Position numbers and translations under genes: made by a program. From an uncultured Negativibacillus sp. (lineage in GTDB: Bacteria > Bacillota > Clostridia > Oscillospirales > Ruminococcaceae), in assembly GCF_944388365.1 (NCBI RefSeq), contig NZ_CALXIN010000002.1:1-64000 (forward strand): DNA of 64,000 nt, read 5' to 3'. The notes below the pieces were generated by a model, which was not told where the DNA came from, did not search any database, and saw nothing but the letters and a program-made list of their open reading frames with translations. Each line of letters opens with the position of its first letter. The first letter of the stretch is position 1. Below are positions 61,925 to 64,000 of this stretch, piece by piece.

Positions 61925-61961
61925 AAAAAAGTCATCGCATAAACTGCGATGACTTTTTTGT
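61925..61961 (+). terminator. Terminator of the pst operon
   Basis: AAAAAAGTCATCGCA and TGCGATGACTTTTTT with a short loop; symmetrical, works on both strands. Confidence 0.92.
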
Positions 61962-62000: not shown

Positions 62001-62288
62001 TCAGGATGTGTGTCTTTTTGCTCTTTGATAGCAGGGCTGTTCCACCTTTGCCTCCACAAACCACTTGTTGCCCTCCTGAAACAGAAAGGTTTCCTTGCCG
62101 TGAACGACAATGGTGTATCGGATGCCGCCGCCGCTGACCTTGGAGGATGCAGCGCGGCACTTGTGTTTGAGGCGTTCGATGGGAAAAATGCGGCCATTGG
62201 GCCAGCGAATCAGTCGCGGACAGATGACGCCCTGTTCATCAACGTCCAGATTGACGCTGACATAAGCTTTTTTGCAGGATGGTTCCAT
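62001..62288 (-). CDS. Small conserved protein divergent from a repressor-polymerase cassette
   Basis: 95 residues. A compact beta-rich domain (KKAYVSVNLDVDEQGVICPR, then GGGIRYTIVVHGKETFLF and KWFVEAKV). Proteins of this pattern occur in Clostridia beside XRE/ImmA/Y-family polymerase genes. I know of no function for them. A near-perfect promoter on this strand sits about 100 bases upstream and overlaps an operator-like repeat, so it should be controlled with the facing genes. Confidence 0.75.
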   Translation of the reverse strand: MEPSCKKAYVSVNLDVDEQGVICPRLIRWPNGRIFPIERLKHKCRAASSKVSGGGIRYTIVVHGKETFLFQEGNKWFVEAKVEQPCYQRAKRHTS

Positions 62289-62334
62289 AAGGGATGCTTC
62301 ACCTCCGAATGGTTGGATGCGGTCGATTGCCGCC

Positions 62335-62363
62335 TTGACAAAATGAGCAATTCACGGTACACT
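62335..62363 (+). promoter_or_regulatory. Promoter of the XRE-ImmA-polymerase operon
   Basis: TTGACA at 62335-62340, 17-base spacer, TACACT at 62358-62363. The palindromic operator-like site at 62365-62383 begins right after the -10. Confidence 0.75.
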
Positions 62364-62364
62364 A

Positions 62365-62383
62365 TGAGTAGTTTAACTGCTCA
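62365..62383. promoter_or_regulatory. Operator-like palindrome, site 1
   Basis: TGAGTAGTTTAACTGCTCA is a 19-base palindrome with one mismatched pair. Its core AGTAGTTTAACTGCT recurs 30 bases on as AGTATTTTAACTGCT (62397-62411). Likely bound by the adjacent XRE protein. Confidence 0.6.
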
Positions 62384-62390
62384 TAAGAGT

Positions 62391-62419
62391 ATTATAAGTA
62401 TTTTAACTGCTATTGTCAA
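62391..62419 (-). promoter_or_regulatory. Consensus promoter of the small divergent gene, with operator site 2 in its spacer
   Basis: On the minus strand TTGACA (62419-62414), exactly 17 bases, TATAAT (62396-62391). The second operator-like copy, 62397-62411, lies inside the spacer, where a bound repressor would block the polymerase. Confidence 0.8.
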
Positions 62420-62476
62420 GAGAGAAAAGGCAGTTGGATGTCCCATCCTTTTGCAGGAAGAGGAGTGATCGACAAG

Positions 62477-62890
62477 ATGACATTTGGAGAGAAGTTTAAA
62501 ATCCAGCGGGAAAAGCTGGGTTTGACACAACAGCAGGTGGCGGATGCATTGGGGATTAACCGCCGGATGATTACGCGGTATGAAAATGGGATTTCCTTTC
62601 CGAGGACAAAGGAAGCCTACCGGAAGATTGCAGAATTTTTTGAGGTGGATATTAATTACCTGCTGACCGAGGAGGAGGAGTTTGTAGTTCAGGCTTTGGA
62701 GCAGTACGGTTCCCGCGGGATGCAGGAGGCACAGGAGCTGATCCATTCAATGTCGGGACTGTTTGCAGGAGGTAGCCTGTCCGAGCAGGATAAGGATGCT
62801 GTCATGAAGGCATTGCAGGATATTTACTGGGAGTCCAAGGCGCGCAATGTACAGAAATACACCCCCAAAAAGTACCAGAAGCAGGACTAA
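62477..62890 (+). CDS. XRE-family transcriptional repressor
   Basis: 137 residues from ATG 62477. The N-terminal helix-turn-helix (about 5-60: LTQQQVADALGINRRMITRYENG) is followed by a helical dimerisation region. It is upstream of an ImmA/IrrE-type protease, whose known role in other systems (ImmR/ImmA, DdrO/IrrE) is to cut such a repressor after DNA damage. Expected to repress its own operon and the divergent gene. Confidence 0.88.
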   Translation: MTFGEKFKIQREKLGLTQQQVADALGINRRMITRYENGISFPRTKEAYRKIAEFFEVDINYLLTEEEEFVVQALEQYGSRGMQEAQELIHSMSGLFAGGSLSEQDKDAVMKALQDIYWESKARNVQKYTPKKYQKQD

Positions 62891-62905: not shown

Positions 62906-63448
62906 ATGATGATTCGCTCGAAGGAAATTTATCAGCGGGCGCAGCGCATTGTCCGGCACTGCAAGACCAGGGATGCGCTGGAGATTGCCGCAGAGCTGGG
63001 GATCTATGTTCACAGCATCGACAGCCTGACCTCGCTGTTGGGGATGTATACCTATCGTCACAAGGAAAGACACATCCTTTTGAATGCCAACATGGACCCG
63101 ATGCTGACACAGATGGTTTGTGCGCATGAAATCGGACATGACCTTCTGCATCGGGAGCTTGCCAAAGGAAGCGGTTCGCTGCCGGAGTTTGTGCTGTTCG
63201 ATATGCGTTCCACGCCGGAATATGAAGCCAATGCCTTTGCAGCTCATCTGCTGATCGACGACAGGGAGCTTCTCGAAAATCTGCGACAGGGATACGATGT
63301 AGCTCAACTGGCTTCGATGATGGGAACCAATATCAACCTGATGCTGATTAAACTAAACGAATTAAACCGCATGGGATGGCAGCTGAATCTGCCGTATGTT
63401 CCGCACGGGGATTTTCTGAAAAACCTGAAGGCGCAGGAGGAAGATTAG
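62906..63448 (+). CDS. ImmA/IrrE-family metallopeptidase
   Basis: 180 residues from ATG 62906 (or 62909), after AAAGGAGTGAG. The zinc motif is H74-E-I-G-H78, followed by DLLH and a downstream EYEANAFAAHLLI, which supplies the third ligand in this family. Cytosolic. It probably cleaves the XRE repressor encoded just upstream. Confidence 0.9.
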   Translation: MMIRSKEIYQRAQRIVRHCKTRDALEIAAELGIYVHSIDSLTSLLGMYTYRHKERHILLNANMDPMLTQMVCAHEIGHDLLHRELAKGSGSLPEFVLFDMRSTPEYEANAFAAHLLIDDRELLENLRQGYDVAQLASMMGTNINLMLIKLNELNRMGWQLNLPYVPHGDFLKNLKAQEED

Positions 63449-63476: not shown

Positions 63477-64000
63477 ATGAAACAGCGCATCTATCTGGCA
63501 ATCGACCTGAAGTCGTTTTATGCTTCGGTGGAATGCAGAGAACGGGGACTGGACCCGATGGACACCAATCTGGTGGTGGCGGATGAAAGCCGGACCGATA
63601 AGACCATCTGCCTCGCGGTCAGTCCTTCGCTGAAAACCTACGGCATTTCGGGAAGGGCAAGACTGTTCGAGGTGGTACAGCGCGTTCGGGAAGCAAATGC
63701 AGGCCGCAGACACGATGCACCAGGGAAAAAACTGACGGGAAGATCCTGCTTTTTGTCCGAGCTCAACGCCTCTCCGCAGCTGGAAATTGACTATCTCATC
63801 GCGCCGCCGCGCATGGCCTATTACATGGAGTACAGCACTCGCGTCTACAATGTTTATCTCAAATATATTGCGCCGGAGGACATCCTGGTCTATTCCATCG
63901 ACGAGGTTTTTCTGGATGTGACCGACTATCTGCATACCTATCGCCTTTCTGCACGGGAGCTGGCGATGAAGATCATTCTGGATGTGCTCCATACTACCGG
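63477..64000 (+). CDS. Y-family DNA polymerase (DinB/UmuC-like), 3' end outside window
   Basis: 174 codons are visible from ATG 63477, after GGAGG at 63460-63464. Palm-domain catalytic residues are present: D10 in AIDLKSFYASVEC, and D142 and E143 in YSIDEVFLDVTD. Compared with DinB it has extra residues between the finger and palm strands, as in the UvrX/UmuC-like group of Firmicutes. It would copy past damaged bases. It is third in the operon with the repressor and protease. Confidence 0.9.
   Translation, partial: MKQRIYLAIDLKSFYASVECRERGLDPMDTNLVVADESRTDKTICLAVSPSLKTYGISGRARLFEVVQRVREANAGRRHDAPGKKLTGRSCFLSELNASPQLEIDYLIAPPRMAYYMEYSTRVYNVYLKYIAPEDILVYSIDEVFLDVTDYLHTYRLSARELAMKIILDVLHTT

Follow-up and report, generated by a model that had tools for sequence, protein, structure and literature searches.

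Two promoters face each other between the diverging genes P95 and XRE of an uncultured Negativibacillus sp., at 62335-62419 of the window (the whole 64,000-nucleotide stretch of DNA that we analysed), and they are interlaced with putative operators. We think it likely that the region governs an autoregulated XRE-M78 switch of the ImmR/DdrO-like kind, which keeps a Y-family DNA polymerase cassette off from both sides. This reading is built on the anatomy of the region, on its conservation and on a tie between the operator letters and the DNA-binding domain of the XRE proteins, all of which were observed directly.

Genes of the cassette

The rightward genes, all on the forward strand, encode a 137-aa XRE repressor (62477-62890; HTH_19 2.1e-12, HTH_3 3.7e-12), an adjoining ImmA/IrrE-type M78 metallopeptidase (62906-63448; PF06114 8.8e-14), which carries a HEIGH motif and looks intact, and a 502-aa Y-family DNA polymerase of the UmuC/DinB superfamily (PF00817 2.4e-17), which begins at 63477 and runs past the window end at 64000. 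The complete polymerase frame occupies L007 1477-2985 and is followed by a 140-aa protein, which we take to be YolD-like. Since the polymerase lies under the XRE promoter in the window, autorepression would limit the polymerase as well. The best solved sequence matches of the XRE protein are the phage Phi106 repressor (9sf2) and then the ICEBs1 ImmR DNA-binding domain (7t8i). Its DNA-binding part resembles ImmR and DdrO, and its C-terminal part is predicted to be helical, contains a conserved LFAGG stretch and, as a model, superposes poorly on full-length DdrO (rmsd >12).

The leftward side consists of P95 alone (62001-62288, reverse strand, 95 aa), with a leftward ribosome-binding site, CACCTCC, at 62300-62306. 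Neither Pfam nor NCBIfam holds a family model for P95. Its predicted fold is small and all-beta (pLDDT 78), and the model gave no match to the PDB at E 0.001. SepQ was considered as its identity and set aside, the match of 0.0045 being below its cut-off and taken as chance. A hairpin that resembles a terminator and has runs of T on either strand (61925-61959) lies between pstB and P95, and the locus as a whole is flanked by a phosphate-transport operon and ABC transporter genes.

Face-to-face promoters in the window

The rightward promoter, TTGACA-17-TACACT, occupies 62335-62363 on the forward strand (10/12) and is expected to serve XRE, M78 and the polymerase, and the leftward one, TTGACA-17-TATAAT, occupies 62391-62419 on the reverse strand (12/12) and is expected to serve P95. 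Both had been proposed in the initial annotation, and the promoter scan placed them just there. The same annotation spoke of a divergent switch, which holds for the genes but not for the promoters: because the rightward promoter lies to the left of the leftward one, the two are convergent, with 27 bases between their -10 boxes. Judged from these boxes, transcription would start at about 62370 (rightward) and 62384 (leftward), and if so the two RNAs would share about 15 bases.

A scan of 4 kb at 9/12 found two promoters, both belonging to this pair, compared with 2.8 in shuffles, so that at this loose threshold the promoter count alone is not significant. Face-to-face pairs of any kind occur in 5 of the 253 other window tiles, and pairs with a summed score of at least 20 in 1 of the 253.

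Paired promoters in relatives

XRE homologues were gathered from near genomes (11 of 61 with a match at E 1e-15), family genomes (56 of 396 at E 1e-18) and GTDB contigs (23 loci), and the 63 usable upstreams were collapsed to 50 distinct ones. Promoters were counted as paired when each reached at least 9/12 and their -10 boxes lay 10-60 bases apart. Comparison with relatives, which had been suggested at the outset as a check, revealed face-to-face promoters upstream of 35 of the 50 distinct XRE homologues, against 1.72 expected from shuffled upstreams, and in 29 of 44 after near-identical mobile copies had been collapsed. The native background is 13 of 872 tiles (5/253 in the window and 8/619 in locus tiles), and AT-rich tiles, which overlap one another, gave 33 of 609. 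In the 29 collapsed loci the gap between the -10 boxes ranges from 22 to 38 with a median of 27, and a 12/12 promoter is found leftward in 23 and rightward in 3. Fifteen of the 50 upstreams have no such pair, which counts against our preferred reading.

Operators in the window

Directly after the rightward -10 lies O2, TGAGTAGTTTAACTGCTCA (62365-62383), a 19-base dyad with 8/9 pairs that spans both predicted start sites. O3 (62395-62413) is identical to O2 at 15 of 19 positions, fills the leftward spacer and abuts the leftward -10. The two copies, 30 bases apart, were thus recovered as initially annotated. In a wider comparison O3 matches O2 at 17 of 21 positions, and none of 300 shuffles did as well. 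Dyad symmetry alone is not rare, as 13 19-mers in the window reach at least 8/9 pairs, and the O2 dyad by itself has a shuffle p of 0.053.

The annotation had counted two operators. Both are present, but relatives (see below) show four positions, which in the window include a half-site O1, TGAGCAATT (62344-62352, forward strand), within the rightward promoter spacer, and a degenerate fourth operator O4 (62426-62446) in the XRE leader, which agrees with O2 at 12 of 21 positions (p 0.123). In the window, then, O2 and O3 are the strong candidate operators, beside a half-site at O1 and a degenerate O4.

O3 aside, the whole 64-kb window holds no further copy of O2 within 4 mismatches. When the genome was searched with the motif TGAGYAGTTNAACTGCTCA, 62365-62383 was the single place found with up to 2 mismatches, and one more place appeared at 3, so the regulator looks local. 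Dispersed operators like those of the DdrO regulon were likewise not found for this motif within 2 mismatches, and a genome-wide regulon for this operator is unsupported.

Operators in relatives

Three comparisons were made, all confined to loci with paired promoters. Half-sites were compared in 26 hand-chosen loci, each queried with its own O2; operator letters in 31 hand-chosen loci, four of them from phages or plasmids; and spacings in 20 of 30 loci, kept for an O2 dyad of at least 6/8 pairs. O2-like half-sites occur in the rightward spacer (O1) in 15 of the 26 loci against 2.25 expected, in the leftward spacer (O3) in 10 against 1.24, and in the XRE leader (O4) in 18 against 3.17. Upstream of the rightward -35 the counts are little above chance (5 of 26 versus 2.55, and further up 9 versus 6.43). 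The O2 dyad is individually significant in only 9 of the 26 loci. When whole sites were scored, significance was reached in 13 of 20 loci for O3 and in 13 of 20 for O4. O1 was rejected as a full operator (significant in 2 of 20) and is retained as a half-site. The common plan of these putative operators is therefore O1 (half), O2, O3 and O4.

The letters at these positions change with the protein. Across the 31 loci, the 24 bases after the rightward -10 vary in parallel with the DNA-binding domain of XRE (Mantel r 0.45, reached in 0 of 2000 permutations), a value that, like the Rayleigh and Fisher values in this work, is optimistic, as shared descent is ignored beyond the C-terminal correction and L064/L065 and other pairs are close relatives. 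Given the C-terminal domain, the correlation with the DNA-binding domain is 0.41, and the reverse partial correlation is -0.04. Neutral DNA further upstream gives 0.07 (p 0.14). Of the observations made here, this tie argues most strongly that the XRE proteins may read these sites. A single XRE regulator for both promoters, as first proposed, gains from this comparison of sequences, in which operators keep their promoter positions in diverged relatives and their letters track the DNA-binding domain.

The proposal that the 30-base distance between O2 and O3 signals cooperativity fared worse. In relatives this spacing takes values between 28 and 41, which show no phasing with the helix (R 0.33, p 0.25; 13 loci), and conserved phasing of O2 and O3 was rejected as a basis for cooperativity. 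O3 and O4, on the other hand, lie 30-33 or 41-42 bases apart, three or four turns, in all 11 loci in which both are significant (R 0.87 at 10.5 bases, with periods from 9.5 to 12 fitting nearly as well). The idea of turn-spaced operators is therefore supported, at another pair.

We also noted, by eye, that XRE proteins with Gln at residue 33, a helix position, accompany a CGAA core in O2 in 5 of 7 loci (L002, L013, L014, L017 and L070). The core is absent despite Gln33 in L064 and L110 and present in 1 of the 24 others (L051, on the other strand). Residue 33 is a possible specificity residue.

Polymerase and P95 in relatives

An M78 homologue lies downstream of XRE in most of the 50 loci, and a Y-family polymerase lies near XRE in 23 of these loci, all of which were found by XRE alone, as judged from DNA that usually extends 1.5 or 3 kb to each side. 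In many relatives the leftward gene is itself a DinB polymerase, and 11 of the 13 loci of this kind have paired promoters. The two exceptions are L037, which fails because its gap is larger, and L054, whose DinB lies further off. Where the polymerase is only rightward and no divergent ORF was called, none of 5 loci is paired (versus 11/13, Fisher p 0.0025, optimistic as stated above), and in four of these five (L060, L062, L063 and L066) a dyad was seen by eye directly after the rightward -10. Two more rightward-polymerase loci have other divergent ORFs, L014 being paired and L018 unpaired; with both added the comparison becomes 11/13 versus 1/7 (p 0.0044, again optimistic).

P95 is conserved in relatives. 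With the organism's own genome and the mobile copy excluded, its homologue is the neighbour of DinB, with both genes on one strand, in 10 of 12 loci. From these neighbourhoods we take P95 for a likely partner of the Y-family polymerases, and it represents a protein family, as yet unnamed, that accompanies these enzymes.

A second cassette and LexA in the same genome

The same genome contains a second cassette on contig C67 (L008), in which P95 is 77%, XRE 36%, M78 46%, the polymerase 78% and the 140-aa protein 55% identical to the counterparts in the window. Its promoters (L002 in the promoter set) are paired, with a summed score of 22 of 24 and a gap of 31, and its operator differs (CACGAAC...TTTCGTG). 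These two cassettes account for all Y-family polymerase matches in the assembly, which is 95% complete.

Operators upstream of XRE in L008, such as CGAACAATCTTTCG, are one base off CGAAC-N4-GTTCG, which we take to be a LexA-type box. LexA and XRE could share sites there, or the resemblance could be coincidence. LexA boxes are of the GAAC-N4-GTTC type; none was seen on reading 62300-62480, and none lies there among the matches listed. In the 95% complete assembly the LexA DNA-binding family has one borderline match (C4:26491-26622; 23.4 bits, or 24.4 with neighbours, for a cut-off of 23.7), which leaves it uncertain whether the organism has canonical SOS control.

Mobile copies

Contigs with the titles Eisenbergiella, Gemmiger, Fournierella, Oscillibacter, Angelakisella and Faecalibacterium, among others, contain near-identical copies. 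The mobile copy has P95 and a second M78 gene leftward. In the same-genus genome G002 (L105 6789-16001), the mobile copy comes with a polymerase that is 81% identical to that of the window and lies about 6.5 kb downstream of XRE.

Two Heliusvirales gut phages carry an XRE gene divergent from a polymerase 68-71% identical to the L071 DinB, with paired promoters. Among nine phage or plasmid records, seven pass the pair test (L106-L110, L112 and L114) and two fail (L111 and L113). L107 is the near-identical mobile copy, the pair of L112 is weaker, and the leftward promoter of L114 is probably spurious, its -35 running into the XRE start. The unpaired L113, a Campylobacter plasmid, keeps XRE, M78 and the Y-family polymerase. 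In a Monoglobus plasmid record (L108 7293-8408), a predicted tet(40) gene lies some 3 kb away from the DinB version.

We looked for an empty site that would prove recent insertion. At the nearest phosphate operon from the same genus (L103), the roughly 8.8 kb searched contain neither a homologue of the cassette nor the right-hand genes of the window, which makes this comparison uninformative.

Relation to known systems

Switches built from XRE-COG2856 pairs are a known kind, and the present one is real and conserved; its layout and cargo were without description in our limited literature search. In that search of open-licence literature, by titles and abstracts, no description was found of an XRE-ImmA pair controlling a Y-family polymerase.

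Phages P2 and 186 have face-to-face immunity promoters between opposing genes, as in the window, but use two different repressors and phage genes and are not known to have a protease partner or repair cargo. HdiR of Lactococcus is, like the window XRE, a local non-LexA repressor before a umuC-like gene; unlike it, HdiR is self-cleaving in the manner of LexA and is not known to have a separate M78 protease.

In the Deinococcus radiation and desiccation response, as reported in PMC8072749, an XRE repressor with a dimerising C-terminal part (DdrO) is cut by an M78/COG2856 protease (IrrE, or PprI), and DNA repair genes are thereby controlled. The system is also reported to respond to redox and zinc signalling (PMC7907104). 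DdrO serves about 20 dispersed genes through one motif, whereas the operator in the window is local and is combined with Y-family polymerase cargo, face-to-face promoters and four operator positions. PprI-DdrO reportedly evolved from prophage ImmA-ImmR, which is said to be the subject of one paper.

ImmR-ImmA of ICEBs1 shares with the window adjacent XRE and M78 genes, several operators between divergent genes and a DNA-binding domain that is among the best solved matches of the window XRE. It differs in its cargo, which is excision and transfer, and in its promoters, which are separated by about 130 bp and each have three sites nearby (PMC4207663). The same paper describes the RcoLS20 Pc/Pr region of plasmid pLS20, where, as here, a single regulator has several sites and the promoters are opposed and overlap, RNA polymerase being proposed to take one at a time; in pLS20, however, the two promoters have coinciding -10 and -35 boxes, and one of them is weak and subject to activation (PMC4207663). 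The pLS20 system also differs in having no protease partner.

Proposed mechanism and alternatives

Binding, repression, promoter exclusion, cleavage and a damage signal are the steps that we infer from this anatomy. XRE would bind O2 over both starts, and also O3, which lies inside the spacer of the leftward and stronger promoter, aided at these sites by the weaker O1 and O4, and O3 and O4 would bracket the strong leftward -35. The leftward gene would be held tightly off and the XRE operon (XRE, M78 peptidase, Y-family polymerase and YolD-like protein) kept low, weaker coverage of the rightward promoter allowing the repressor to maintain itself at a low level. With -10 boxes 27 bases apart and face to face, RNA polymerase should not fully occupy both promoters together; whether such exclusion operates seems to us evenly balanced. 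DdrO and ImmR are reported to be cut by M78-type proteases (PMC8072749). On a stress signal the M78 peptidase would similarly cut XRE, both sides would open and the cassette would be made, and with both promoters free the stronger leftward one should delay fresh repressor. That DNA damage is the inducer is a guess from the polymerase cargo, and we would give it roughly equal weight for and against.

Could the region instead be a relic of the immunity region of a phage or conjugative element? The XRE-protease pair would then decide the life of that element, with the polymerase and P95 as passengers obeying this decision and not what the host requires. Such an origin would fit the near-identical copies seen in many genera, the XRE homologues of gut phages and plasmids, and the leftward P95 and second M78 gene of the mobile copy. 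We nevertheless judge it unlikely: the window locus has the phosphate-transport operon on one side and ABC transporter genes on the other, an unsystematic reading of nearby ORFs turned up no gene of phage or transfer type, and polymerase and XRE remain together whether the carrier is a chromosome, a plasmid or a phage. Still less probable, in our opinion, is that XRE represses one side and activates the other, giving a two-state switch in place of common silencing. RcoLS20 is a precedent: it is reported to repress the opposing promoter while activating its own, weak one (PMC4207663). Here both promoters are near consensus and should not depend on an activator, and O2 extends over the two predicted starts. 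O4 and O3 are found downstream of the start of the rightward promoter, an activator of which would usually sit elsewhere.

It is very improbable that the rightward promoter alone matters, XRE being a plain autorepressor and the leftward promoter either constitutive or a match that arose by chance. The leftward site scores 12/12 here and in 23 of the 29 collapsed loci, is missing in the five loci without a called divergent ORF, and has its spacer filled by O3 here and occupied by O2-like half-sites in 10 of 26 loci. These observations stand against a scan that at 9/12 gives no more promoters than shuffles, and against relatives in which, by eye, a lone rightward promoter is followed by a dyad after its -10. 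The autoregulated XRE-M78 switch silencing both sides remains the reading that we prefer. Besides the upstreams that lack a pair, several points weigh against it: the O2 dyad is significant by itself in few loci and falls short of this in the window (p 0.053), where O4 is not significant either and O1 is just a half-site; O2 and O3 are unphased in relatives; the C-terminal part superposes poorly on DdrO; and in the window the polymerase sits under the autorepressed XRE promoter, with P95 as the sole leftward gene. A wider version of it, which we put forward tentatively and lean away from, is a LexA-independent, self-contained mutagenesis switch that has spread through gut Clostridia and their phages and plasmids. 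An XRE-M78 pair would act there on four operator positions in face-to-face promoters, and repressor binding, phased O3-O4 pairing and RNA-polymerase exclusion would together make translesion polymerase appear in a sharp burst that resets itself. The layout would stay fixed while repressor and operator letters change together. Such co-change would mean that several mutually blind copies can share one cell, and this genome does carry two cassettes.

Implications

If the switch works as proposed, an error-prone polymerase in many gut anaerobes would be under a local repressor-protease pair rather than LexA. The polymerase could then move between species on elements possibly carrying resistance genes, such as the tet(40) that lies about 3 kb away in one relative. 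The fixed layout with its changing operator letters would also offer a ready comparative system for repressor-operator co-change and for switching between opposed promoters.
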